Below are positions 9,596 through 29,366 of a stretch of DNA of 42,575 nt, piece by piece. A program made the position numbers and the translations under genes. Within the stretch, counting starts at the first letter, position 1. Each line of letters starts with the position of its first letter. The notes under the pieces are model-generated. The model was not told the DNA's origin. It made no database searches and saw only the letters and a program-made list of their open reading frames with translations. Source of the stretch: Chrysochromulina tobinii (Eukaryota > Haptophyta > Prymnesiales > Chrysochromulinaceae); the NCBI GenBank assembly GCA_001275005.1, contig JWZX01002845.1, positions 1-42,575 of the forward strand, given 5' to 3'.

Positions 9596-9912
9596 ACAGC
9601 TCCAAAGTTGCCGCTCTGCCACGCCAGATCGGGATACCGGCGGTCAGGTCGCACGCCGTGGAGCTCCACACGTCCACTCCTGTGTAGTAAATGAGCATTC
9701 CTCGTTGTCATTTCCAAACGCACCGCCCGTGACAACGCGGGCCGAGTGTCGCATATCGTCCTCCGTCCCCGAGCACGTCGGAGGGCCGTCTCGCCGACGG
9801 AGCAGTGTGTGATCGCCACCTCAGACCCGAATGCCCTCCCGGCTCGAGTGTTCCGTGAGCTCCGCTGGCACCGCTGCAGTCTCACTGGCCTCTCTCGCGT
9901 GCAGGAACAAAA
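9596..9912. other. Intergenic region, antenna gene to MTAN gene
   Basis: 317 bases between two genes in the same direction. I see no RNA gene, repeat array or clear promoter element. Confidence 0.5.
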
Positions 9913-11523
9913 ATGGCCTCCTCGAAGTCGTGCTTAGGCATCCTCGCGGCGGTGCGCAGCCAGGACCCCCGCCAGCGCGCGCCGCAATCCTTCCAGCTGC
10001 ACAGCGCTCACGCGGCCTGCCCAGCTCCGCCACCGCAGATGCCCCAAGAGGTTGAGAAGCTCAAGGCCAACGTCACTGACCAGGTCGAGCACAATCGCGG
10101 CACTGTCTTCACATTCACTACGGGAACTCTGGGCGGTCGGCCGGTGGTCTTCGCCGCAGCCAACGTGGGCACCGTCTTCGCTGGCAGTGCAGCGACGACG
10201 ATGATCAACGAGTTCAAGGTGTCGGCGATCGTCTTCACCGGCGTGGCGGGCGGTCTCAAGCAGGGCCAGAAGGTGGGCGACCTTCTCATCGGGAAGGATG
10301 TCGTGAACTACGAGATGGACGTACGCGCGTTCCATCCGCCTTGGGATCCTCACGTGTACCAGCTGGGCGAGATCCCGTTCCTCAAGTGGCGGTTCTACGA
10401 GGCCGACCCGACCATGCTCGCCACGGCGCTCGAGGCGCCCCTCGCTCACGGCGTGGTGCTCGCGCAGGGACGCATCGCGACCGGCTCCATTTTCATCGAC
10501 ACAGCCGCCAAAAAGGCGATGACCTCGACAGTGTGGGAACCCCTTGGCTTCCCCGACGCGTGCGAGATGGAGAACGCGGGCGTCGCGCAGATCTGCAAGG
10601 CGTACGGCGTGCCCTACCTCTCCCTGCGCGCCCTCTCCGACGTCATTGAGGGCGACGCGAACGCTGACTTCGGCGCCTTTTGCCAGCAAGCTGCGGACAA
10701 CGTGTTCCCTATTGTCCAACACCTCGCAGCGACGCTGGTGGACGCGGTGGACGTATCCGCGGGCGAGGGCGCCAAGCCCAAGGGAGGCAAGCCGTCGGCG
10801 GAGGAGATTGAGAAGATGAAGGCGGAGAAGGCCGCACAACCGAAGAAGGAGCCGCCGCCGCCGCAGACGAAGGAGACGCCAGAGGAGAAGGCAGCCAAGG
10901 AGGCGGCGAAGGCGAAGGACAAGCTGCTCAAGACGGTGATCAAGGAGGGCGGCAAGAAGGGCGTCGAGATCGAGGGCGCTGCCGAGATGGGCGGCCTCGA
11001 CTTCTTTTGCACGACCATCGAGTCGCCCGAGGGCGACCAGTCGCTGCTGCTCACGGCGATGCAGGCGATGAACGCAGACCCTGACCCGCTTGCCGAGGAG
11101 CGCAAGGGCTGCTCGGGCTTTGTGGGCAAGATGATCTTCTCGGCGGGCACCGCGCAGCTCGCCATCGTCGCGTACGTTCCCAAGCCCGAGTCGAACAAGT
11201 CGGCCGAGAAGGTGGACGTGACCGAGTGGATCAAGTCTGTGGCCGCGGCCGTCGGCGGCACGGTGACCAACGAGAAGATGGAGGCGCCCGACACGTTCGT
11301 CAACGAGGGCAAGCCCTTCCCGTGCCCGCACGGCGGCCACTTTGCGGAGGCGGTCGTCGTCTCCAACCCGGAGGCGGGCAAGTACGCGATCAAGGACAAG
11401 GACACGGCCATGGCGGCCGCCTTCGACTACCTGCGAAAGCACGGCGCCTTCCCCGAGGACACCGGCGACGACGAGGACGACATGGTCTTTGGCGACGACG
11501 ACGACCTCAGTGCCTTTGATTAG
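9913..11523 (+). CDS. 5'-methylthioadenosine/S-adenosylhomocysteine nucleosidase with C-terminal extension domain
   Basis: Exons 9913-9951 and 10039-11523 give 507 residues. Residues about 8-240 are a PNP/UDP-phosphorylase-fold MTA/SAH nucleosidase: spliced N-terminus L-G-I-L-A-A-M-P-Q-E-V-E-K-L (equivalent of Met9 and Glu12 of E. coli Pfs), V-F-T-G-V-A-G-G-L, E-M-E-N-A-G (Glu174 equivalent) and A-L-S-D-V (catalytic Asp197). It cleaves adenine from MTA or SAH in the methionine and methylation cycles. A Lys/Glu/Pro-rich linker (about 245-300) leads to a ~200-residue folded C-terminal domain I do not recognise, ending in an acidic D/E-rich tail. Cytosolic location is likely, since no targeting peptide is seen. 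The fusion is unusual; bacterial enzymes stop after the first domain. Confidence 0.82.
   Translation: MASSKSCLGILAAVRSQDPRQRAPQSFQLHSAHAACPAPPPQMPQEVEKLKANVTDQVEHNRGTVFTFTTGTLGGRPVVFAAANVGTVFAGSAATTMINEFKVSAIVFTGVAGGLKQGQKVGDLLIGKDVVNYEMDVRAFHPPWDPHVYQLGEIPFLKWRFYEADPTMLATALEAPLAHGVVLAQGRIATGSIFIDTAAKKAMTSTVWEPLGFPDACEMENAGVAQICKAYGVPYLSLRALSDVIEGDANADFGAFCQQAADNVFPIVQHLAATLVDAVDVSAGEGAKPKGGKPSAEEIEKMKAEKAAQPKKEPPPPQTKETPEEKAAKEAAKAKDKLLKTVIKEGGKKGVEIEGAAEMGGLDFFCTTIESPEGDQSLLLTAMQAMNADPDPLAEERKGCSGFVGKMIFSAGTAQLAIVAYVPKPESNKSAEKVDVTEWIKSVAAAVGGTVTNEKMEAPDTFVNEGKPFPCPHGGHFAEAVVVSNPEAGKYAIKDKDTAMAAAFDYLRKHGAFPEDTGDDEDDMVFGDDDDLSAFD
9952..10038 (+). other. Hidden in-frame intron (87 nt) in the MTAN gene
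   Basis: Donor GCG|GTGCGC and acceptor CCACCGCAG|ATG, length divisible by three and without a stop, so a plain open frame hides it. Its removal joins L-G-I-L-A-A to M-P-Q-E-V-E-K-L, which exactly matches the canonical spacing of the nucleosidase N-terminus. Confidence 0.85.
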
Positions 11524-15864: not shown

Positions 15865-17162
15865 CTAGATCGGCATCTGCCACACGGCCACCTCGTCCTC
15901 TGCGGCCGAGAAGAGCCGATTGCCACCGAAATGGAGCGAGCGCACGTTATGGCAGTGGAGCTCGACAGAGGCTGCCCCAATGAGCACCGAGCCCCCACTG
16001 TCGAGCACGCGCTCCTCAGCGGCCGCCTCCTCGGCAGTCATGGGAGAAGCGAGGTATTCGATCAGCTGTACGGCGCCGCTCGCGCCGCCCACAGCGAGCA
16101 GGGGGGCGCAGTCGCATGCGGCCAGAGAGGTGGGCCATTCATCGAGCGAGAGCGCCGCGACGGGCACACGCTGCAGGAAGTCATACAAGGTGAGCCGTCG
16201 CTCGCGTGTGAGGCCGGTGCACGCGATGACTCCGGGTCGTCCCGGGAGGAAGCTCACGAGGCATCGCCATCCGAGGGGCGCCAGCTTCGCGGGCAGCTTG
16301 AGCACAGGGGCGGACTCGAGTGAAAGGGAGACGAGCGGCGTCGCCTCCGCTGCCGAGCGAGCGTCACGTACGAGCGGCCATACCTCGACTTGCTGATGCT
16401 CAGATGCGACTGCCCACAAAGCGACGGGCGCGCCGCCCGTTGGCGTCGCCGTGTCGCCGATGATGTACCCGCCGTAGCTCAGGTCGAGGCAGGTCACGGG
16501 CACGTTCGTAGGGGGGCGGAGCGTCGCCAAGGGCGCGAGCAGCTCGCCGAGGGCCGCCGAGTGCAAGCGGACCTCGCCGTCGGCGGCGGCGGAGAGCAGG
16601 CATGCACGAGGGCCAAAGGCGAGGCAGGCGATCGGCGCCACGTGTACCCGGCGCTGCGTGAGCAGCTGCAGCGAGCCGATGGAGACGAGCTGCACGCGCC
16701 CGGAGCTGTAGCCCACCGCCACCAGCCCCCCCGCCGTCGGGTCGTCGACCCCCTTTGCACTCTTCCCCCCCCAGCCGGTCGTCGGCGTGATGCCGAGCGC
16801 CGTCGCGGGCTCATTCGGCTGATGAATGCGCGCGAGCGGCGCGCCGCACGGCGCGCCTGGGCGCGCGTCCCAGAGCAGCACGCCGCATGATTCGCCCTGC
16901 ATCTCGCCAAGGGAGAGCGAGGCAAGCACCGTAGGCGCCGCGCCGTCCTGGGCGCGCGGCACCGCGAGGGCGACGAGCGGCGGTGGCACCGCACCCGTGA
17001 GTAGCGTGGCGGCACCCGTAGTCCACTGCACGTGCCACAGCGAGCCTGCGGCGGTCCCCACCACGCCCTGTGTGCCGTCCTCGGCCCAGCTCATCGCGAT
17101 CGCATCGCCGTCCAACTCAATCTCCCCGAGCGGGGTGAGCACTAGCTCTGGCCGGCCGCCCA

Positions 17163-17195
<33 letters not shown>

Positions 17196-18736
17196 TGGGA
17201 GGAGGGATGGTGAGACGGAAGCGGCAGACCGCGTGCGTGGCCGAGGCGCCCCCGACGACCAAGTGCCAGGAGGCGAAGTCGGAGGCGCCGACGGGCGCCA
17301 CCGCCACCGACGCGTGCAGCAGGTCGATTTCGTCAAAGAGCGACGAGAGTGTGAAGACGCCAATCGGCGCCGAAGCGGCGGCCGACGCAAAGGCGGCGCT
17401 CGTCGAGGCGGCGGCGGGAGGCGGCCCCCACAGGCACAGGGTGCCCTCGGTGTCGCCTGTGAGACTCAGGGTGGGGCTCAGGTGCAGCATGGCAGTCGCG
17501 TGCACCGGGTTGCCCTCGACGTCGGCGGGGAGGAGACGGGGCGAGAGCGGCAGCAACATCGGCCGAGCGCGAGGCTCCTCGGACGGCTCGTCCTCGCCCT
17601 CGTCCTCGTCGCCGCCCGCGGCGGGTAGTGAGGCCGCGGGCTGCGTCGCTACCCGCCACGTGTACAGGCCGCCCTTGCCCGCGGCGGAGATCTGAAGCCC
17701 ATCGGCGGAGACGGCGAGGCAGTGCAGGTCGGGTGGCGTGGAGGCGCTCAGGAGCAGCGCGCCTGAGATGACGCTGTGCACGCGCAGCTGCCCGTCGTGC
17801 AACCCGAGCGACGCGAGCGCCGCCTGCCCCAGAAAGGCAAGGCACTGCACGCCGCCCTCGTGGCCGGGCAGCCGCATGCGCAGCACGGCGCTCGCCTTCT
17901 CGGAGCTCGCGGCGAGATCGAGATCTGCCGCGCGAGGATGCAGGTCGTACACGCAGAGCGGCGCGTCGCTGCCCGCGCCCACGGCGGCGAAGCGCCCGTC
18001 GTTGGAGAGCGCCAAGGTCGAGATCTCGCCAGATCCGCCCGTCAGGTGGACGGGCGCCGTGCCGGGCGCGAGGCTGTCGACGACGAGGGTGTCGCCGCTC
18101 GCGTAGATGAGAGTGGCCGTGCTCGGTTGCCACACGACGTGGTCATGCGCGTGCGTCGAGAAGCCGATCAGTCGGAGCAGCTCGAGGCCGGAGGCCACAT
18201 GGGTCGCGAGGGAGTCCCCCTCGTGCTCCGCCGCGAGCCCTCGCGCCTCTGCCACCAACGCGGCGACTGACGAACCCCATGTAACGGCCTCGGCCGCTGC
18301 TTGGGCGGAGCGTCCACCGGGATGCGCCGAGATCGCATCGAGCTCGCGAGCTCCCATGGCCTCGGCGAGGGCTGCGTCGGTCACTGCCTCGACGGGGGCA
18401 TCGTCGGTGTACACGACGCGAAGCCGGTAGCGCTTTCGAGGGAACGGGCTCTCATCCTCGCCCTCGTCCTCGTCCTCGTCCTCCTCCTCCTCCTCCTCGT
18501 CCTCCTCCTGCGGGTCCTCCTCCTGCTGCTGCTGCTTGGTCGCCACCGCCGCCGCCACGACCGGGTCGGACAGCGTCACCGAGCGGCCCGCCTCCGCACC
18601 AGCCATCAGGTACCCCGCCTCGGCCGTCCCGAGAGCACGCAGCCGTTGACGAAGCGCCTCAAAGTCGTCCGCCGTCGGCCCCACGTCCGCGAGCGCCGTC
18701 TTGGGCGCCGCCGCGCCCACCGCGCCCGCGTCCTCA

Positions 18737-18769
<33 letters not shown>

Positions 18770-21700
18770 CCCTCCTCGTCCTCGTCCCCGTCCGCACCCG
18801 AGGCGGCGCCGGCGAGCACTTGCGACGGCGACGGTAAGCGCTCCTTGGCGCGCTCGTAGAGCCCCTCGAGCTCGAGCAGCCGCCCGTCCCGCTCGGCCTC
18901 CGCCTGACGCACCGACTCGTCCACCACATCCTCCGGGTCGGCCCCTGCCGGTCCGCGGTACTCCCACACGAAGACCGTGTCGCCGCCGCCGACCATGAGG
19001 AGCGTCTGGCCATCCGACGAGAAGGCGAGCTTCGTGATCACGTCGGGCGCTCCGATGAACGGCTGGCACGCGCCCGGTCCACAGCCGCGCGTCTTCTCCG
19101 GGCCGGCGCCGCCCTCGCGCACGGTGGCCATCGGCCACATGCGCAGCTTCTTGTCATGGCCGCCGGTGGCCACGTGCGCACCCGAGCGTGCCAGGGCGAG
19201 CGCGTCGATGGGCGCCGTGTGCGCGTGAGGCAGCACGGCCGCTTCGGAAGCCGCCAGCCCACCTGCGGTCAGCGGCACGCAAAGCAGGGTCCCCTCGAGC
19301 GTCGCCAGGAAAAGCGTGCGGCCTGGCCCCATGGCCACCGCCGTCGCGTTCGCCGAGAGGGAGAAGGTGTTGAGGACTGTGAGCGTGCTCGCGTCGAGGG
19401 TGAGCACCGCCTTATTCTGAAGCCCACCAGCGACGAGCAGCTTGTCGTCAGAGGTGAGGGCGAGGCACGGCTTCGCGTCCGGGAACGCCTTGGCCGAAAA
19501 CGCGCGCGAGGGCTGGTACGAGTGCACCACATCGTACGCGGTGAGGCCGCAGTCCGTGCCGGCTGAGTAGAGTCGCTCGCCGTCGGCGGAGTAGGCGAGG
19601 TCAATGACCTTCCCCGCGTGCTGCGTGTACTCCTCGAGCAGCGACGTGGACGCGATGTCAAAGACGCGCACCGATCCGTCGTCGAAGCCGGCGGCGATGA
19701 CATACTCCGTCGGGTGGTACGCGACACAGCGCGAGCACCCTTCGGGCAGCTCGAACTCGACCAGCTGCGCCTGCGTGCCGTCGAGCTCCCATACGCGGAT
19801 CGAGCCGTCGCAGGAGGCGGTGACGAACTCGCGGTTATGCGGGTCGAGCGCGAGCCCATAGATGATGTCCGTGTGCGAGCGCACGATGGTTGCATGCTTG
19901 AGCGTGGGCACGTCGAGCATCCCGATCGTGCCCGAGGCTGTCCCGATGAGGAGCTTCAACCCATCGGGCGACGCGTCAATGGCCGTTACACTCCCTTCAT
20001 GCTCCGTCTCGAGAAAGTGCGCCGAAAAGTCGAGCGGCCACACGCGTAGCAGACGGTCCTCGGCGCCCGTGACCGCGAAGCCGGCGGAGAGGTGGACGGC
20101 GTGGATGGCGGCGCCCTCGTGGAGAGCGTGCACGGCCTGATGAGGGAGGCCATCACGCGCCCAGTCAGTGATGAGGGAGGCCATCACGCGCCCAGTCAGT
20201 GATGAGGGAGGCCATCACGCGCCCAGTCAGTGATGAGGGAGGCCATCACGCGCCGAGACCATCGGAAGGGCGAACCGACGGAAGACGGTGGCGGCGGGGC
20301 ACTCTGCGGCAATCATCGGTCCTCAGAAGGCAATCATCAGTCCTCAGAAGGCAATCATCGGTCCTCAGAGGCAATCATCAGTCCTCAGCGGCATTCATCG
20401 GCCCGTATCCTCGGTCCTCAGCGAGATATCAACGACATATCAACGAGATCTAAGCGAGATCGCACCTCGAGCGTGCGCTTCGTCGGGTCGATGACGAAGA
20501 GGTGGCCAGAGGAGCCGCCGACGAGAAGGCGGCGTTGCTTTTGGCGTTCGGCGCCGCCGCCGTGTTGGGCGGGGTCGTCGAGGGCGAGGCACAGAAAGAG
20601 CGTGCCCGCCTCGTGCTGTAGAGGGATGCCGCAGCAGTGCAGCTTGCCGCGGCGCAGCCGCCAGAAGCGCACATTCTCGTAGCCGCACGCGACGAGCTGA
20701 TGGCCCTCGGCGGGGGGCGTCCCCTCGGCCTTGGCGTGCGCGACGTCCATCGGCTCGGGAGGCACCCATTGAATGACGCGCACGTGGGTGGACGACACCT
20801 TGGCATCGAGCAGCGGGCACGAGGGCAGCGGCGCCGCCGCCTGCGTCACGTCCCAGACGGCGAGCAGCTGCCGGCCGCGCGCGTCCTTCCCCACAGCGGC
20901 GAGCAGAGAACCGTCCGACGAGAGGGAGAGGGTGTGCAGGTCCGCCGCGTGCTGCTGCAGCATCGCGAGTGGCGTGCACGTGTTGCTGTCCCACAGCCGG
21001 ATGATCGGCAAGGCGCCCACCTGTGGGGAAGTGGAGGGGGCGTCGTGGTGAGCACGTGCAGGCTGCTCCTCGCCCGCAAGCATGCAAGAAGATCGGCAAG
21101 GCGCCCACCTGCGCTGACGCGATCAGGGGCGACGTCGAGGCCGCCGAGAGCGCGCACACGTCGGCCGTATGGCCGATCAGGAACCGCTGGGCGCCCGTGT
21201 CCAATTCCTGCAGGATGAGCAACGAGGCGGCCGCGTAGAGCACGCGACGCCCGTCCTTCATCCACACGAGCAGCCCGTTCCGCTCGCCCGAGTAGCCCAG
21301 CACGCGGCTCAGCGCGAGCACCGTCGGGTCGGCCGGGGCTGTCGGCTTGGGGGGTGGGGGGAAGAGGGCGCGAGGCGCGGCGCCCGATCGCTGCCGACGG
21401 CGCCGTGTGACCTCATCGACGTCGGCGGCGGCGCTGCTGCGCGGCTCGGTGCGCGGGCTTGCGCCGGCGGGCGCACCAAGACCGGCACTCTTGAGAGCAC
21501 GCGTCGGTGGTGCGCTCAGAGGGGCGCCAGAGACAGCCAGATCGGCCGCCGAGAACGGCGCGACGGCCGGCGGCGCAGGTAGCCATCGCCACTCGAAGAG
21601 GTCGCCGAAGGCCTTGCCTGCGGGGAGCGGGATCGCAAACTCGCGCGGCAGCGTCTCGAACTGGTACACGAGGTCCGACGTGAACGCCGCGCGCAGGTTC

Positions 21701-22194
21701 ATCGAGCAGCACGCGACGAGGCCCTTGAGCGCTGCGAACCGCCCCTTGCTCGACGCCACGACGGCGGCGGTGAGCGCGGCGAGGTCGACGGCGAGGACGG
21801 TCCAGCGGCCCGCGGTGGCCGCGAGCTGCGCGCCCGGGATCTGCACCACCGTTCCCACCTGCTTGATCGTCGTGAAGCGGCTCGAGAGCGTCACGCGAAC
21901 GACAAACTTGGCGTCGGTCAGAAGGTCAAAGTGCAGCGTGAAGGCGGCGCCGGGAAGCAGGCAGAGCTCGAGGTAGAGATAGGCGCCGCTCAGTCCGAGC
22001 CCGATGGGGCCGGGCTTGGGCAGCGCGAGGTAGTTGGCTGCCGCCGTCTTGCCACGGATGGCGACGCACTTTTTGCCGATCGTCTTGTCGATGGCCTCTG
22101 AGACGTCGCCCTGCTTCTCCGCGTCGGCGAAGCCGCTGGAGGCGAAGTGCTTGAGGATGTCGACGTACGGGTCGGGGAACTTGTGCGCGAGCAT
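15865..22194 (-). CDS. WDR90: WDR90/POC16-like protein (CFA20-like domain + WD40 repeats), three exons
   Basis: Exons 22194-21109, 21020-20466 and 20136-15865 give about 1970 residues. The frame reads upstream of 22194 only from non-ATG codons; the ATG gives M-L-A-H-K-F-P-D-P-Y-V-D-I-L-K-H-F, matching the CFA20/DUF667-like N-terminus of WDR90, followed by G-D-V, D-K-T, I-R-G, A-A-N-Y and the Y-L-Y strand. Then come many WD40 units through the two last exons, including V-T-G-A-E-D-R-L-L-R-V-W-P-L-D-F and H-E-G-S-V-T-A-I-D-A-S-P-D-G-L, characteristic of the WDR90 central propeller. Acidic low-complexity inserts (18450-18535, 18720-18795) and a poly-Gly run (17165-17195) lie between propellers. 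Known role: centriole inner scaffold/ciliary component (POC16 in Chlamydomonas). Human protein is about 1750 residues, so inserts explain the excess. Confidence 0.88.
20137..20465 (-). repeat. WDR90-like intron 2 with 31-bp and ~21-bp arrays
   Basis: 329-nt intron, donor GAG|GTGCGA, acceptor CTCATCAG|G, phase 0. Four 31-bp units start at 20138, 20169, 20200 and 20231 (TGATGAGGGAGGCCATCACG...), each carrying a copy of the CTCATCA acceptor sequence on the sense strand. A second array of about 21-bp units (CAATCATCGGTCCTCAGAAG variants) occupies about 20306-20400. Confidence 0.88.
21003..21111 (-). other. WDR90-like intron 1, bordered by a perfect direct repeat
   Basis: Intron 21021-21108 (88 nt). 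In sense direction the donor side reads CAG|GTGGGCGCCTTGCCGATC and the downstream exon also begins CAG|GTGGGCGCCTTGCCGATC (copies at 21091-21111 and 21003-21023, 88 bp apart). The second copy continues as coding sequence (V-G-A-L-P-I-I-R-L-W-D). This is what a tandem duplication around an AG|GT site would leave. Confidence 0.9.
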
Positions 22195-22561
22195 CGGCCC
22201 GGAGCGCGCCTCCCTTCGTTGCGAAGCGCCCGGTGAATAGGAGGGGCGGAGCGACGCGCGCGAAAAAGTTGCCGCGGCAAGGGGTTTCGTTTCCTGAAAG
22301 GACAAGTCAAGTCAAGTCAAATCCAGCAGACTGCCACTTCTCGCACAGTTACATTGAACGTCAGCTCGATAGGTCGACCAGTGATCGCACCTTTTGTTTC
22401 GTACACCACACTGACTTCCAAAATCGCGCACCCAAATTTGCGCTCAGGCGCAATTACGTCCCTCATCAGGGGCGCCTCCCAGGCGCGCGCCTGCCGCAGC
22501 GCGGCTGGCCCCCCGCTCTGTGGGGAAACGCAAAGGCCTGATTTTCAACGCGCCAACGAAG
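22195..22561. promoter_or_regulatory. Divergent region between WDR90-like and NLR-like genes
   Basis: About 370 bases between two opposite starts, presumably both promoters. A short (AAGTC)n-like run lies at about 22303-22322. The NLR-like frame is open back to 22520 but without an ATG. Confidence 0.4.
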
Positions 22562-25500
22562 ATGTGGCACCGCTACTTGACGGCCTTTTGGCACCGCTTG
22601 ACGCTCCGGTGGCGGCCGGGCGGCAAGAATGAACGCGCGTCCATGGATGCGCGCGGTCGTCCCTCCGTCGCGGTACAACAACTTGAAGCATCAAACGAAC
22701 AGCCAGACGTCGTATCACAAGACCCAACGAGCGCATCGCATGACGACCTTGAACCATCACAAGTCGAGCCCATTATCATCTGGACAGAGGCGACGACGCG
22801 CCAATGGCTCGAGGAGCACGAAGTGCCCACCGGCTTGTGGGGAGTGGGCAGCGCCAAGTCCGTGGGGCAGCTTTGGGCCGAGGTGAAACACGGAGAGTGT
22901 ACCCTCATTTACGAGGAGGGACGTGCGCTGCGCGAGCTGCGAGTCGTGAAGCTGCGCGTGCTGCATCCGGCGTCGACCCAGCACCTCATCGAGCAGAAGC
23001 AGACGCTGGCCAACGGCGAGGAGCGGATTCGCGGCGACGTTCCCGGCGAGAAGCTGACGCACGGAGAGATGGCGGAGGTGGGCGCCGTGCGTGGCGTGAA
23101 AGAGGAGCTTGGGTGGGAGGTGGTGGGCGATCCTCGGCTGCTGCACACCACCGTCGAAGTGAAGCCAAGCGAGTCGTACCCGGGGCTGATGTCGCGGTAC
23201 ACGTTCTACGAGTACGCTCTCAACGTTCGGGGCCTTACGGAGGAGCATTTCCAGCCGGCGTTCCAGACGGTCGAGGGCGATAAGATTCACCATTGGCAGT
23301 GGCGCGACGCCATCGTCCAACCGTTAGACGGTCTGGTGCTGCGCGACGCCGACGTGCGCCTGATCGAGCGCCTCTTTGAGCGAGCAACGCGCGTGCGTGT
23401 CTCTGCGCTGCACGGCGGCCTCTCAGGCTCGCTCGTGCTTCGCACGCAGGCCTTCTACGGCGATGCACCCGACGAGCCGACCGTGACCAAGCTCGATGTG
23501 GCCGCGACGCTGATGAGCGAGGTCGCGCGCACAAACGCAGCTGCTCGGCTTGGTGTGCCCGTCGCGCGTGTGATCCGTGGGCCCCTGTTCTCCGAGGAGC
23601 AGACGACGCACAGCCTCGCCTTCGTCGAGGCCAAAATCGATGTGCCGCTTCGAGAGCGGCTGCGCGATGGTTCCATTCGGCTGGTGCGGTGCTCGTGGCT
23701 TCGTTCGGCCGAGGCGGACAAGGCGTTCGGTCGCGACAAGAATGGTGCAGTGGTCGTGAGGCGGCGGCAGGAACTGTCGCACGAGGCTTTTGTGCCGGCG
23801 GCCGAGGCGGTCGAGATGCTGCGGCGCGACGACCGCTCGGTCCTCGTGCTGAGCCATGCGTGGCAGACGCCGTTTCACCCGGACCCGCACGGCACGACGC
23901 TCGCGGCCATGCGAAGCTACCTGGACACGGTGGGCGACGCCGATGGCTGCGGGCTCTTTTGGGACTTCTTATCGATCCACCAGAAGCGCAATGCCGAGTA
24001 CGGACGGACGGAAGACGAGGCAGCGGCCTTCCGGCGCGGGCTTGATGTGATGACGTTCTTGTATGCCAGCCTGACAAGCACCACCGTCCTACTTCAGACG
24101 GAAGTGCCGCCGCGGCCCCAGCAGTACGAAGGGCAGCTCACCGTGTGGAATGTGTTTGACGAAGCCGCACTGCGCGAAGAGATGGCGCAGTACGGCACAG
24201 TGGCGGACATCATGGTGAGCGGCAAGACAGCCACGGTCTCCTTCGAGTCGGAGCTCTCGGCGCAGGCGGCACACGCGGCGCTCCAGGAGCGGGCATGCCG
24301 CACGTACAACGAACGCGAGTACAGAGCGCGCGGATGGACATCGATGGAACAGGGCACCGCGCGCGTCGTGGCCGCGCACCTCGCCGCGGCCGAGGCCACG
24401 GCGCGCCTGCCCATGCGCTTCCAGCTGGCACAGCAGAGCCCGGGCCAAGGTCATCGACATCAGCGGCGGCAGGGTGGCGGACGTGGTGCTGGATAGCCCT
24501 GAGCGCGAGCTCGCGAACGCCAAGGCGGCGATTGGGTGCTCCGTGTTCACGGGCAAGGGCGACGAACCCGTAGTCAAGGCGCTCCTCGCCGGCTTCTACT
24601 CGGTTGTGCTCGACGGCCTCGAGCGCTGGGCACGCGAGCCCGCCCTGGCGACACAGGATGAGCGGCGCGGCGCAGTCGTGCTCGAGTTGGCGGGGGCGTG
24701 CTGGCTGATGCCCGAGTTTAGCGAGCAGGCGGGCGACACGCTCATCAGCACGCTCAAGACGCGGGCCACACGCCGGCTCATGTGGCGCCGCGCCAGTCTT
24801 ATGGGGACACTTTTCGGCTCGAATGACGCACCGGACATTGCCAGCGCCATCCATGCGCTCTTTGGGCCGGGCGGCCCGATCAGCACGCTCGCGCTGCGCT
24901 CAGTGCGCCGCGCGCCACCCGGCCAGTACTTTGGGAGCTGGCGCACCGAGCTGGCGGCGCGTGCTGTGGCGGTAGTCGTGCACCCCGACGACAGGGCCTC
25001 ACCGCTCGCGACGGCGCTGCGCGACGCCGCACGCGACGCAGCGTGGCTCGAGGAGAAGCACGCGGCTCGGTACGCCGACAGCTTTGTGCACGAGCTCGAG
25101 CCTGCGGAGCGCGTGGCTGCTCAGACGTGGTGCGACGAGCTGCTCGCGCTGCTCGAGCGGCTGCGGGACGTGCCGTGGGCAGCGAGATGGGCGCCGCTGC
25201 AGGTGCAGGTTCACGGCGACCTCAACCTGGCCAATGTGCTCCTCGACAAGCAGGACGAGCTTTGGCTCATCGACTTTGCCAAGGCGAGCGTCGGCAGCGT
25301 GGCCGACGACGCAGCCTTCTTCATCTCGCGGCTGCTCTTCCAGCACGCCCCCATCCCACCGACGCTCGACGATGTGCGCACGGCCGTGCTCGAGGTCGAT
25401 GGCGCGCCACGGCCCAATCTGCTCGTCGACGTGCTCGGGCTGAGTGCTGCCGAGGCAGAGCAGCTGCAGATCCCGGCCCGCGCCGGCGGCTCCTTGCCGA

Positions 25501-28500
25501 CGACGCGCCTGCACGGCCATAAGGTCAACGAGTGGCTGGGCGACGACCACGCGGCGGACGCGGTACTGCGCGAGATGGAGCAGGTGGTCGACGCGCTCTT
25601 CGGCTGCGACGACCCGTGGGCCCCAGAGCGGCCCAAGAAGGCAGCATCCAGCTGGTCGACGGGCGTGCGCGAAGTCTTCGAGCTGTGCGCCGCCGTGGCC
25701 ACGCGCACCCGAAGGCTCTGCGCGCGGTGCTGCGCGACGGCTGGCGCGGAGTCGGCGAACGCAGTGGCGGACGACGCCCACCCGTCGCTGCTGCTGCTGC
25801 CACTCCTTGGCTGCGCGCTCACATCCCTGCGCTATCCGCAGCTCTCGCGCCGGCACAAGCGGCTCGCGTGGCACGCCGTGCGCCAGCTCTCCACGGCGCT
25901 TCAACGCCACTTGGCGAAAGCCGTGATGGTTCCGGGCATGCGTGCGCTCCCTCCACCCACTGCTGGACTGCCATGGGCTGTTGGCCAGCCCGTCGTGGTG
26001 ACGCGCAGCCTGATCGACGGCGGCGAAGGCGATGTGCGCCTGGACTTTGTCGCGTCAGGCGGGCAGCTTGAGCACCAGAGCGAGTCGGATGTGTTCTGTG
26101 AGGTCGTGCTGCCATGGCGCATGGGCGCGGAGGGGGGGGTGGCCCTCGAAGACGCGTGGCGCGCACGGGTGGACGTGGCGACGCTCAGAGCGGCGATGCC
26201 TTTTGATGCCGAATTAGCATCCGCCGAAACAGCATCTACCGCGCTGCGCGCCGTCGCTGTGGCAAGTGATGCCGCGCGCCGCGCGGTGGCAGCGGCGGCA
26301 ACGGCGCTCGACTCATTGGTCGCCGAACGACGACGCGACGAGCGTGGCGGCGATGAGAGAGTAGAAAGGGCTCTGCAGGAAGCGGCGCGGGCTCGTGCGA
26401 TCCTGGACGCTCTCTGGCGCCACGATGTCGACCGCGAGTGCGTGGCCGCGTGGCGTGCGACCGGCGTGGCGGGTGGCCGCACGTATGCATCGGGCACGCT
26501 GCTGACGGCCACAGTCGATGGACGTCGATGGCGCGACGCGCGCGTCGAGGAGGGCGCCGACGGTGGTGGCACCCACCGCCTGGTCTGGCTTGACGACGAC
26601 TCGCCTGCACAGCAGGTGGCGCTCCACCCGTGGAATCATGGGTTGCGCGAGCTGCCCGCAGACGACCACGACGCGGCGCGACGACAGTATGAGCGCACGC
26701 TGCGCATGGCACATGCCGCAATCGTCGACGCTCTCTCGGGCAAGCGGCTCGACGTGCGTGAGCAGTGCGTGCCCCTCGCCGTCGCCACGGGTGAGGCCAA
26801 GGAGCGCTTTGGCGAGGTGGATGCCCTTGCGGCCACGCTGCTCGCCCTCCACCGTGGTCGATGCGAAGAGGGCGTCGCCGAGAAGCGTGGGTGCGTGCTG
26901 CTCACCGGCCCGCCGGCAGCAGGCAAGACGTGCCTGATCTCGCAGCTCGTGACACACGTGCTTGACGACCCGGATCGACGGCTCGTCCCCGTGCTCGTGC
27001 GCGTGCAGCTGCTGCAGCGGCTGCTGCTCCTCGAGGAGCATCGAGACACCTTTGCCACCGCGTGGAACTGGGTCGACGCATACCTGCGCTGCGTGCACGG
27101 CTCCGACGCAGATGCGTACCGCATGCTGCGCGGCGCGATGCGCGCGCGACGCGCGCTGCTGCTGCTCGATGGCATGGACGAGGGCGGCCGAATGCGAACG
27201 GCCATCGAGCGGCACGTGACGGAGGTGCTCGCGCCACAGGGACACGTGCTGCTGGTCACGTCGCGCCCCGATGGGCTCGACAGGACGTGCTTTCAGGAGC
27301 ACTTTCTGGCGCTCGAGCTGCGGCCACTCGACGAGACCCAGCAGCACATCGTTGTCGAGCGGCGCGTGGGAAGGGCGCTCGGCGAGGCGCTGTGGCGTGA
27401 GATTGCGGCGACCGCGCCACGCGACGAGCACAATGAGCTCGTAACGAGCAATCCACTGGTATGTACACAGCAGCAGCAGCGCCCGCGCATCACAGCCGCG
27501 CCGCGTCGCACCGTCTCACCTCCACTCTCTCCTTGCCCCACCCTTGTTTCGCGCGCGCACAGATGCTGAGCATGGTGATCTCGCTGTACGAGGCGCGAGG
27601 CGCGCTGCCGCGCAACATTGCGGAGCTCTACGCGGCCGCATCGCGCGCGATGCTCGAGGGGGCTGAGCGCAAGGAGCGGGGCGCAGCGGGGGTGGAGCAC
27701 GTGAGGAGTATCATCCAGGCCATCTTCTTCGAGGCGCACGTGGCAGGCCGGCGGATCATCGAAGAGGATCAGATGCTTGCGGCGGCGGTGGGGCTGCACG
27801 CGAGCGCCGCCGACCGCCTTGCTGCGATCCGCTGGCCAGCACATGCAGGCAAGCCAGTCGTGGGCGAGTATGCAGAGGTGCGGCATGGGGCACACGCAGG
27901 CAGGCGTGGCGAGGTCAGCAAAGCCGGCAATGGCTATCGTGAATACGAGGTCAAGTTTGAGGATGGCACCACTGCCGACAGACTCGGAGCCGAGGACCTC
28001 GCGTCGTCGGGCATGCGCAGGGCCGAATTTGACGCGGCCTACCACCGAAAGCTGTGCGAGGCGCACGATGCGCTGACCGTCGAGCTGCGCGAGGCGTTCG
28101 ATGTTGTGCGCGAGCGCGTGGGGCGCGGCCGCCTGCCGCTGCTGAGCCTGCTGCAGGCCAATCCGCTCCACCTGCAGGCGTCCCACTTGTCCTTCCAGGA
28201 GTATCACATGTGTGCTCTGTGCTGGCGCGCCGCTGCCCGCTGGCGCGCTGCCGTGGCAGTGGACGGCGTGGTGGGCGAATGTGCTGCGTATCGGCGAGGC
28301 GCAGGGCGCCGCGTTCCGCGCCGGCCTGCTGCGCGCAGCCGGGGTGGGCGAGTCGCTGAAGCTCGAGAGTCAACTCGCAAAAGGGCCGACGGCCCTGCGC
28401 GCCGTGCTGCTGCTGGCTGAGAAGGTCTCGCACCTAGACTTGAGAGAGAATGATCTCGGCGCGACAGGTGCGGCAGAGGTGGCTGGGGCTTTGGCCGTCA

Positions 28501-29366
28501 TGGCGGTGGTGACCGAGCTCGATCTCGTGGCCAACGAGATCGGGGATGAGGGTGCCATCGCGATCGCGGAGGCGCTGAAGGTCAACGCGGTGTTGACAAC
28601 CCTCTTCCTCGGCGTCAACAACATCGGGGTCGATGGTGCCAAGGCGATCGCGGAGGCGCTGAAGGTCAACGCGGTGGTGACCACCCTCGTCCTCGGAGGC
28701 AACTTCATCGGGGATGAGGGTGCCATCGCGATCGCGGAGGCGCTGAAGGTCAATGCGGTGATGACCACCCTGCACCTGGCCATGAACCAGATTGGTGCGG
28801 AGGGTGCCATCGCGATCGCGGAGGCGCTGAAGGTCAACGCGGTCGTGACCAAGCTCGAGTTGTACGGCAACAAGATCGGCGACGACGGTGCCAAGGCGAT
28901 CGCGGAGGCGCTGAAGGTCAACGCGGTCCTGACCAAGCTGGACTTGGACGACAACGAAATCGGACCAGAGGGAGCCATCGCGATCGCGGAAGCGCTTAAG
29001 GTCAACGCGGTCCTGACCACTCTGGGCCTGAACTACAACAGAATCCGTCCAGAGGGAGCCATCGCGATCGCGGAGGCGCTGAAGGTCAACGCGGTCCTGA
29101 CCGTCCTGTACTTGGGTGACAACAACATCGGCGTTGGCGGTGCCAAGGCGATCGCAGAGGCGTTGAAGGTCAATGCGGTCCTGACCACCCTGCGCCTGGA
29201 CAACAACAGTATCGGTGCAGAGGGTGCCAAGGCGATCGCGGAGGCACTCAAGGTCAACGCGGTCCTGACCGAACTGGACATCCGGGCCAACAACATGGGA
29301 GATGCAGGAAAAAAAGCGGTGCGAGACGCGGTGAAGGACCGGAGTGGATTTGAGTTGGAGCTGTAG
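22562..29366 (+). CDS. NLR-like STAND ATPase: Nudix-like, split kinase, HET-like + RRM-like, NACHT, LRR (two apparent frameshifts)
   Basis: Reads as one protein of about 2230 residues, if frames are switched near 24437 and 28220 and intron 27459-27562 is removed. Order: Nudix-like domain (22775-23380; box with R-G-V-K-E-E-L-G-W at about 23090); kinase N-lobe with G-G-L-S-G-S (about 23414) and V-T-K-L-D; a HET/TIR-like domain (L-S-H-A-W, F-W-D-F-L-S-I-H-Q, Y-R-A-R-G-W-T-S-M-E-Q) with an RRM-like insert (24142-24285); kinase C-lobe with H-G-D-L-N-L-A-N-V-L-L-D (25212-25247) and I-D-F-A; SH3-like stretch (about 26450-26640); NACHT P-loop G-P-P-A-A-G-K-T (26907-26930), Walker B L-L-L-L-D-G-M-D-E (27156-27182), sensor V-T-S-R-P; winged-helix region with a KOW/Tudor-like insert (27868-28000); eleven 28-residue LRRs (28434-29363). 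ATG choices: 22562 or 22643. Inferred role: intracellular sensor that oligomerises on ligand binding. Confidence 0.8.
24432..24445 (+). other. Apparent frameshift 1 in the NLR-like gene
   Basis: The frame from 22562 reads R-F-Q-L-A-Q-Q and then turns into Gln/Arg/Gly-rich nonsense ending at 24496. The next frame carries on with R-A-R-A-K-V-I-D-I-S-G-G-R-V-A-D-V-V. Phases of all nearby GT and AG sites were checked and none joins the two, so an indel (real lesion or sequence error) is the simplest reading. Confidence 0.65.
27459..27562 (+). other. Intron in the NACHT region of the NLR-like gene
   Basis: 104 nt, donor CTG|GTATGT, acceptor CGCACAG|ATG, phase 0, with a CA/CAG-rich start and a pyrimidine-rich end. 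Splicing gives T-S-N-P-L-M-L-S-M-V-I-S-L-Y, the conserved NPL motif that follows the NACHT ATPase core. Confidence 0.85.
28212..28225 (+). other. Apparent frameshift 2 in the NLR-like gene
   Basis: L-S-F-Q-E-Y-H-M-C-A-L-C in one frame is continued in the next frame by A-G-A-P-L-P-A-G-A-L-P-W-Q-W and then the LRRs. The first frame degenerates after this point. Loss of two bases (or gain of one) within CTCTGTGCTGG would explain it. Confidence 0.6.
28512..29330 (+). repeat. 84-bp coding repeats (28-residue RNI-type LRRs)
   Basis: Near-identical units with the core GCGATCGCGGAGGCGCTGAA are repeated about ten times. Protein consensus: L-T-x-L-x-L-x-x-N-x-I-G-x-x-G-A-x-A-I-A-E-A-L-K-V-N-A-V. DNA identity is high in the helix half and low in the L-x-L-x-x-N half. 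Confidence 0.9.

Follow-up and report, generated by a model that had tools for sequence, protein, structure and literature searches.

What kind of protein is encoded between positions 22562 and 29366 on the forward strand of contig JWZX01002845.1 of the haptophyte Chrysochromulina tobinii (assembly GCA_001275005.1), and do its parts belong to one polypeptide? In the window, by which we mean the whole 42,575-nt stretch analysed, an earlier note made from the letters alone had placed here one NLR-like gene whose N-terminal domains form an unusual set. The single gene is upheld, with the backing of a paralog on contig C729 and of two further copies (P0011 and P0013), while its layout changes: the domain order found is a Nudix-like domain, then a TCAD9/APH-type kinase that holds inserts, then a NACHT ATPase, then leucine-rich repeats (LRRs).

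A probable single gene from the Nudix-like domain to the repeats

The gene model runs from first ATG to stop in two exons and is based on overlapping open reading frames (ORFs) and on the collinear paralog in C729. Four overlapping forward frames cover it (22415-24496, 24219-27569, 27437-28420 and 28146-29366), in which Pfam finds, in turn, NUDIX and a weak RRM, TCAD9 below and NACHT just below their cut-offs, no match, and eleven LRR_6 stretches, the same number of repeats as had been counted by eye. Splicing out a 104-nt GT..AG intron (27459-27562, +, GTATGT..GCACAG) joins the second and third ORFs and restores NPL followed directly by MLSMV, as the earlier note had observed. Exon 2 then opens with a post-NACHT part (27563-28207, +, from MLSMV to HLSFQEYH) that is conserved in C729 and in the proteins P0024-P0026.

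The paralog, found by searching the genome (53 Mb in 2253 contigs), shares 76% identity with the first window ORF and 78% with the second. Its Nudix-to-NACHT part lies within a single 1790-aa stop-to-stop frame, downstream of which an 82-nt intron occupies the position of the window gene's intron and is followed by an open exon 2 with LRRs. Because exon 1 of C729 stays in one frame, its intron sits at the matching place and its exon 2 is open, the predicted window gene is very likely continuous from Nudix to LRR. A protein search returned seven relatives (P0009-P0015), among them the C729 protein (P0009) and the window protein (P0012) themselves. P0011 (1767 aa) and P0013 (1725 aa) are further distinct copies with the same Nudix-to-NACHT run of domains, P0010 is a 1124-aa piece, P0014 is one 2639-aa protein in which a kinase without the HET-like module described below is followed by NACHT and LRR, and P0015 begins past the insertion site of that module and is therefore uninformative about it. 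At the sequence level, LRRs share a polypeptide with the NTPase in C729 (exon 2) and in P0014. C729, P0011 and P0013 make two separate genes, one for the N-terminal part and one for NACHT-LRR, unlikely, the long C729 exon in particular speaking against such a split.

The NACHT ATPase (26895-27362, +) carries both motifs that had been reported for it, an intact P-loop (GPPAAGKT, 26907-26930) and a Walker B of the D-G-M-D-E form (LLLDGMDE, 27159-27182). PF05729 scores 29.2 bits in the genome search, over its cut-off of 26.7, and 25.5 bits, just under it, in the ORF scan; C729 is over the cut-off as well. By its sequence the gene has the NACHT NTPase, complete with its P-loop and an acidic Walker B, by which an NLR is recognised. 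PADLOC gave two weak matches (0.0026 and 0.0089), both to the ATPase part, and the single-sequence PDB matches, to a capsid VP1 (0.019, window translation P0001) and to PilT (0.45, window translation P0002), were taken as chance. Two stretches flanking the NACHT (26496-26858 and 27839-28021, +) look tudor- or KOW-like by eye and are common to many paralogs; neither has a Pfam match.

A kinase interrupted by a HET-like module

The kinase falls into two separated stretches, an N-lobe (23339-23605, +; KinN profile, residues 309-397 of the ORF) with a GGLSGSLVL loop and the lysine of TVTKLD, and a remainder (24672-25631, +; KinC profile, residues 152-471 of P0002; TCAD9) with the hinge VVLELAGACW and the motifs HGDLNLANV (25212-25238) and LIDFA (25266-25280). 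The catalytic Lys, HxD...N and DF of an APH/TCAD9-type kinase are present in the window gene. Across 11 aligned kinases the H, L and N of HGDLNxxN are invariant, and at least 90% keep the Asp of that motif and the Asp of DF. Against a TCAD9 cut-off of 40, the window ORF scores 36.3 and 39.1 in two scans, both below, C729 scores 44.9 in one scan and 38.5, below, in another, and relatives reach 58.0-64.2; NCBIfam kinase models match at 1.6e-5 and weaker, far under their cut-offs. The kinase-like domain first recognised from HGDLN and IDFA is confirmed by these motifs and by the scores of C729 and the relatives.

Between the two stretches lies the HET-like module (23633-24599, +; SVLVLSHAW, FWDFLSIHQ, RGWTSMEQ), delimited by a module profile, by alignment and by kinases that are without it, namely those of C1713, C1434 and C2166, found in a profile search, and that of C1297. 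The lysine strand and the hinge (LAGACW) are 402 residues apart in C729 and P0011, 409 in P0010 and, by slightly different anchors, 397 in P0012. The corresponding distances in the module-free kinases are 46 (C1434), 48 (C1713), 83 (C1297) and 93 (C2166), and in P0014, which has no module and a long linker, 230. Since 402-409 residues with the module stand against 46-93 in the module-free paralogs, the module sits inside the kinase; as predicted from sequence, it interrupts the kinase fold in its N-terminal half, and an RRM fold is inserted in the module. The serial order Nudix, kinase, HET, RRM is ruled out by the paralog kinases and the distance comparison, and gives way to a nested one, kinase[HET-like[RRM]].

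The module-free kinases vary in other respects. C1713 also carries a segment akin to the Nudix-like domain, diverged too far for Pfam NUDIX to match it, and the frame holding its NACHT is equally long (1798 aa). In the kinase-NLR of C1297 (L034), HGD..N and IDF are replaced by HAN..N and LEA, so that it is probably a pseudokinase. Elsewhere, on C2246 (L041), an APH-type kinase is fused to a class III aminotransferase.

Aligned modules share ordered blocks of the LSxxW, FWDxxSxxQ and GWxxxE types, with the Glu in all 17 rows that reach it; these may resemble the blocks of HET domains. The RRM-fold insert (24131-24325, +, ends approximate) is supported as a beta-alpha-beta-beta-alpha-beta fold by a predicted model, a fold search and PDB profiles, so that the RRM-like region seen earlier appears to be real as a fold. 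PDB profile searches with the module gave RRM matches, and also EF-hand matches that trace to an extra domain of P0020, a JGI-sample protein in which a HET-like module occurs with EF-hands. In the window the insert has an RNP2-like LTVWNV and an RNP1-like GKTATVSF and is missing the aromatic RNA-stacking residues that the RRM consensus places in RNP1 and RNP2; it is more likely a protein-interaction part than an RNA reader. Four of the 21 aligned modules (P0017, P0018, P0019 and P0021) are RRM-free, and one, at 1603-2970 of C746 (L013), has by eye two RRM-type inserts in tandem. This last belongs to four loci (L011-L014 on C1634, C1989, C746 and C788) where HET-like modules occur and NACHT matches are lacking close by. 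In L011 there are an LRR part, what looks by eye like a hydrophobic region of membrane type, and traces of a second module. No close relatives of the module were found in genome_contigs or viral_contigs, and none of P0009 in viral_contigs; the viral library search gave nothing usable.

The Nudix-like domain

Ahead of the kinase, the Nudix-like domain (22760-23338, +) matches PF00293 with 24.3 bits (E 3.4e-5) on the domain alone and 21.3 on the whole ORF, against a cut-off of 21.1; the C729 translation, which is cut at its N-terminus, scores 17.9, below the cut-off. Five of seven family members have a Nudix match at E <= 1, and nine of the ten weak matches in a PDB profile search with the domain are Nudix-type by name (best E 0.022). 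A full Nudix box reads GX5EX7REUXEEXGU. The window box, GEKLTHGEMAEVGAVRGVKEELG, has G for the first E of REUXEE, and no complete box was found in any of the seven aligned rows, which have G, A or R there. What stands of the proposed Nudix domain is therefore its family, by profile match, and not a complete catalytic box. Judging by these residues, ligand binding or regulation is a more likely role for the domain than active hydrolysis. A tandem pair of nearly identical Nudix-like domains occupies one 537-aa frame on C2125 (L049).

Variation of the LRR units

The 28-residue LRR units and the C-terminal end occupy 28509-29366 (+), with nine complete units in 28509-29264 and hypervariable concave positions. 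Over eight units, position 5 takes eight different residues, and positions 15-28 are invariant except for 17. Positions 5, 7, 8 and 10 are the textbook exposed positions of such repeats; picked after inspection of the columns and then tested, they have the highest entropy sum among all 20475 four-column sets (8 units). The ratio of nonsynonymous to synonymous differences per site (pN/pS) is 1.25 at these four positions and 0.09 in the framework (nine units, no significance test), and one 24-base framework sequence is present 69 times genome-wide. Figures from all 21 units are biased because loci L001-L008 were fetched by the framework pattern, and the window units were relied on instead. Variation is thus concentrated where the repeats, otherwise nearly identical, are predicted to face the ligand, and it is this pattern that lends the earlier proposal of a self/non-self sensor its support, which is indirect.

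Relatives and origin of the architecture

Other NLRs of the same genome (C1485, C1242, C1095 and others) resemble the window gene in having a HET-like module, NACHT and LRR, and differ in that segment searches found no kinase or Nudix in them. A tally compiled by hand, leaving out rows confined to Nudix or kinase parts as well as several that were short and weak, gives 43 contigs with the HET-like module and 42 with NACHT, the two lying within 6 kb of each other on 16. An unrooted NACHT tree was built from 18 of the 21 rows extracted, the other three being duplicates of loci already included. Nine rows group in a clade (99/96) to which the window gene does not belong; eight of these have a HET-like module on the contig, and C664 is unassigned. 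An unrooted tree of 21 modules is divided by a 100/100 split, with the modules of these NLRs on the side opposite C729. The C729 side also holds membrane-type, RRM-free and other modules; the other side consists of ten modules, nine on contigs with a NACHT match and the tenth on C2191, which ends first. C729 is a long branch in the trees, and the place of the window gene among the kinase NLRs is weak (59/75). We favour, without taking it as proven, a capture of the module separate from that in the genome's other HET-like NLRs.

The three Tpt1/KptA matches found in the genome (RNA 2'-phosphotransferase domains; L043/L046 on C2166, L047 on C1990 and L048 on C1389) each share their contig with a NACHT match; on C2166 the domain (8.7e-50) precedes the same kinase type. 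The N-termini thus appear exchangeable among paralogs (Nudix, Tpt1).

Further fusions were noted along the way: CHAT is joined to NACHT/NB-ARC on C920 (L045, which also has a doublecortin match) and, on a shorter stretch and with CHAT below its cut-off, on C252 (L044). The genome has 26 TIR_2 matches. Elsewhere in the window, a forward frame at 9859-11523 joins, by eye, nucleoside-phosphorylase-like and elongation-factor-1-beta-like parts, and WD40-rich reverse-strand frames at 15865-22311 look by eye like ciliary WDR90/POC16, which would suit a flagellate nuclear genome.

Proposed function and competing explanations

We consider it fairly likely that the gene encodes an intracellular non-self sensor of the STAND/NLR type, in which the NACHT serves to cluster a composite N-terminal effector. 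Taken by parts, an NLR-type sensor is highly probable, action of the effector by proximity quite likely, and a nucleotide-type output evenly balanced. A variable ligand would bind the concave LRR face, the NACHT would exchange ADP for ATP and oligomerise, as in its family, and the composite effectors would be gathered, with the RRM fold perhaps coupling oligomerisation to the HET-like module; clustering and proximity are suggested because the protein belongs to the NLR family. The output could be nucleotide- or small-molecule-based, through phosphotransfer by the kinase, a step that relies on its catalytic residues being in place, and a HET-like activity through the GWxxxE Glu, and might lead to stress signalling or cell death. 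A nucleotide-type output is plausible because NUDT7, a Nudix protein, acts in trans by cleaving plant TIR products (in the portion available of PMC9153377), and because APH-type kinases, TIR and Nudix are among the effectors of bacterial conflict systems (likewise PMC7159879). Very doubtful is a full relay in which the HET-like module makes a nucleotide messenger, the kinase phosphorylates it, the Nudix-like domain binds or erases it and the RRM fold serves as internal gate. Were it true, the Tpt1/KptA that a sister receptor has in the Nudix place would mean that these receptors generally signal through interchangeable NAD/ADP-ribose chemistry.

Several results weigh against the sensor-and-effector reading. 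The catalytic Glu of the Nudix box is Gly in both the window and C729, and the structure model of the domain is unusable (predicted local distance difference test score, pLDDT, 39). A predicted 971-residue model has an overall mean confidence of 60, with low values in the kinase and Nudix parts, and its Foldseek search listed mostly RRMs and reached E <= 0.001 with no PDB entry; the search covered the HET-like part only within this larger model, so the lack of a HET/TIR match there carries no weight. Pfam HET (PF06985) is silent in the genome search, as it is in 14 control genomes, and at E <= 10 it is not among the best 25 of 28 Pfam families for 21 module members, the remaining three of which rank below E 0.67. 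With hhalign against seven TIR rows of the same genome, probabilities were 0.2 and 0.3% on shallow alignments. The HET/TIR-like character first suggested for the module was thus unconfirmed in the Pfam HET, hhalign-TIR and PDB profile tests, and a HET-like effector is suggested by motifs. Finally, the window copy lacks a continuous open frame, having two frame changes besides the intron, and in two 150-codon stretches the ratio of nonsynonymous to synonymous substitution rates (dN/dS) is 0.79 and 0.85, indicating weak constraint there.

The frame changes raise the possibility, which we judge unlikely, that the window copy is a decaying pseudogene and only C729-type copies are functional. At the first (24435-24439, +, in the ORF overlap), the JGI-sample protein P0012, 100% identical over residues 36-675 of P0001 and 99.8% over 73-1116 of P0002, reads through unbroken. 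At the second (28208-28214, +), P0024, P0025 and P0026 (67-81% identity over the stretch searched) are open; no near-identical sequence spanning it was found, which leaves decay some room. An assembly error is possible because P0012 is without the first change and three relatives are without the second. Splice sites and LRR units are intact, dN/dS against C729 is 0.67 in the N-terminal part, 0.49 from kinase to NACHT and 0.33 in the post-NACHT part, and on sequence grounds assembly error or strain variation appears likelier than old decay. Rather unlikely, too, is that the Nudix, kinase and RRM parts are integrated decoys, baits attacked by an intruder whose attack the receptor senses, as in plant NLRs with integrated domains. 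Such decoys would fit a Nudix box without its Glu in two copies, an RRM without the consensus aromatics, the HAN and LEA of the C1297 kinase and the swapping of Nudix and Tpt1 among paralogs, and plant examples exist (PMC9528084, as far as available). An enzyme is better suited by the kinase residues kept in the window gene and most aligned relatives and by the strong best Tpt1 match (E 8.7e-50). The same biochemistry might also serve a STAND protein that regulates development, mating or symbiosis. STAND proteins have many roles; LRRs that combine a homogenised framework with hypervariability at exposed positions, in a genome with many NACHT and HET-like matches, suit non-self recognition, and a non-immune role seems unlikely to us.

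Comparison with known systems and significance

The receptor architecture is known in kind, that of an NLR; its unusual part is the predicted kinase[HET-like[RRM]] nest behind a Nudix-like domain. Among the closest in design are the HET-E/HET-D (HNWD) receptors of the fungus Podospora, with a HET N-terminus, NACHT and near-identical repeats that evolve in concert and have hypervariable contact sites (PMC12222747 and PMC4986451, in their available portions). They differ in having WD40 instead of LRR, a HET that is N-terminal and not inside a kinase, and no Nudix, kinase or RRM, and theirs is a HET domain where ours is HET-like, of unproven identity. Plant TIR-NLRs and integrated-domain NLRs likewise add a TIR or other domains to an NB-LRR receptor, with NB-ARC instead of NACHT and no such nest, and TIR identity is unproven in the algal gene. 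TCAD9 takes its name from bacterial vWA-MoxR ternary conflict systems (PMC10910872), among whose effectors are APH-type kinases, TIR and Nudix (PMC7159879). These systems are multi-gene, and the available portions of the two descriptions have no NACHT-LRR polypeptide of this order. Brown-algal ROCO-LRR proteins are also algal LRR candidate immune receptors, with a ROCO GTPase instead of NACHT and diversity through exon shuffling and splicing (PMC11378527, in part). HET relatives in Haptophyceae are mentioned in the accessible part of PMC4986451; the C. tobin genome paper (PMC4580454) does not mention NACHT, NLR or LRR, and a literature search with subscription journals mostly outside its scope found, among the papers listed and judging by title, no account of such receptors.

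If the sensor reading is true, the locus would be a case of two putative effector enzymes built into each other, and unicellular algae would own an NLR repertoire of hypervariable LRR sensors with enzyme-rich, exchangeable N-termini and nested domains. The recognition of viruses and bacteria by single-celled phytoplankton would then become directly testable.

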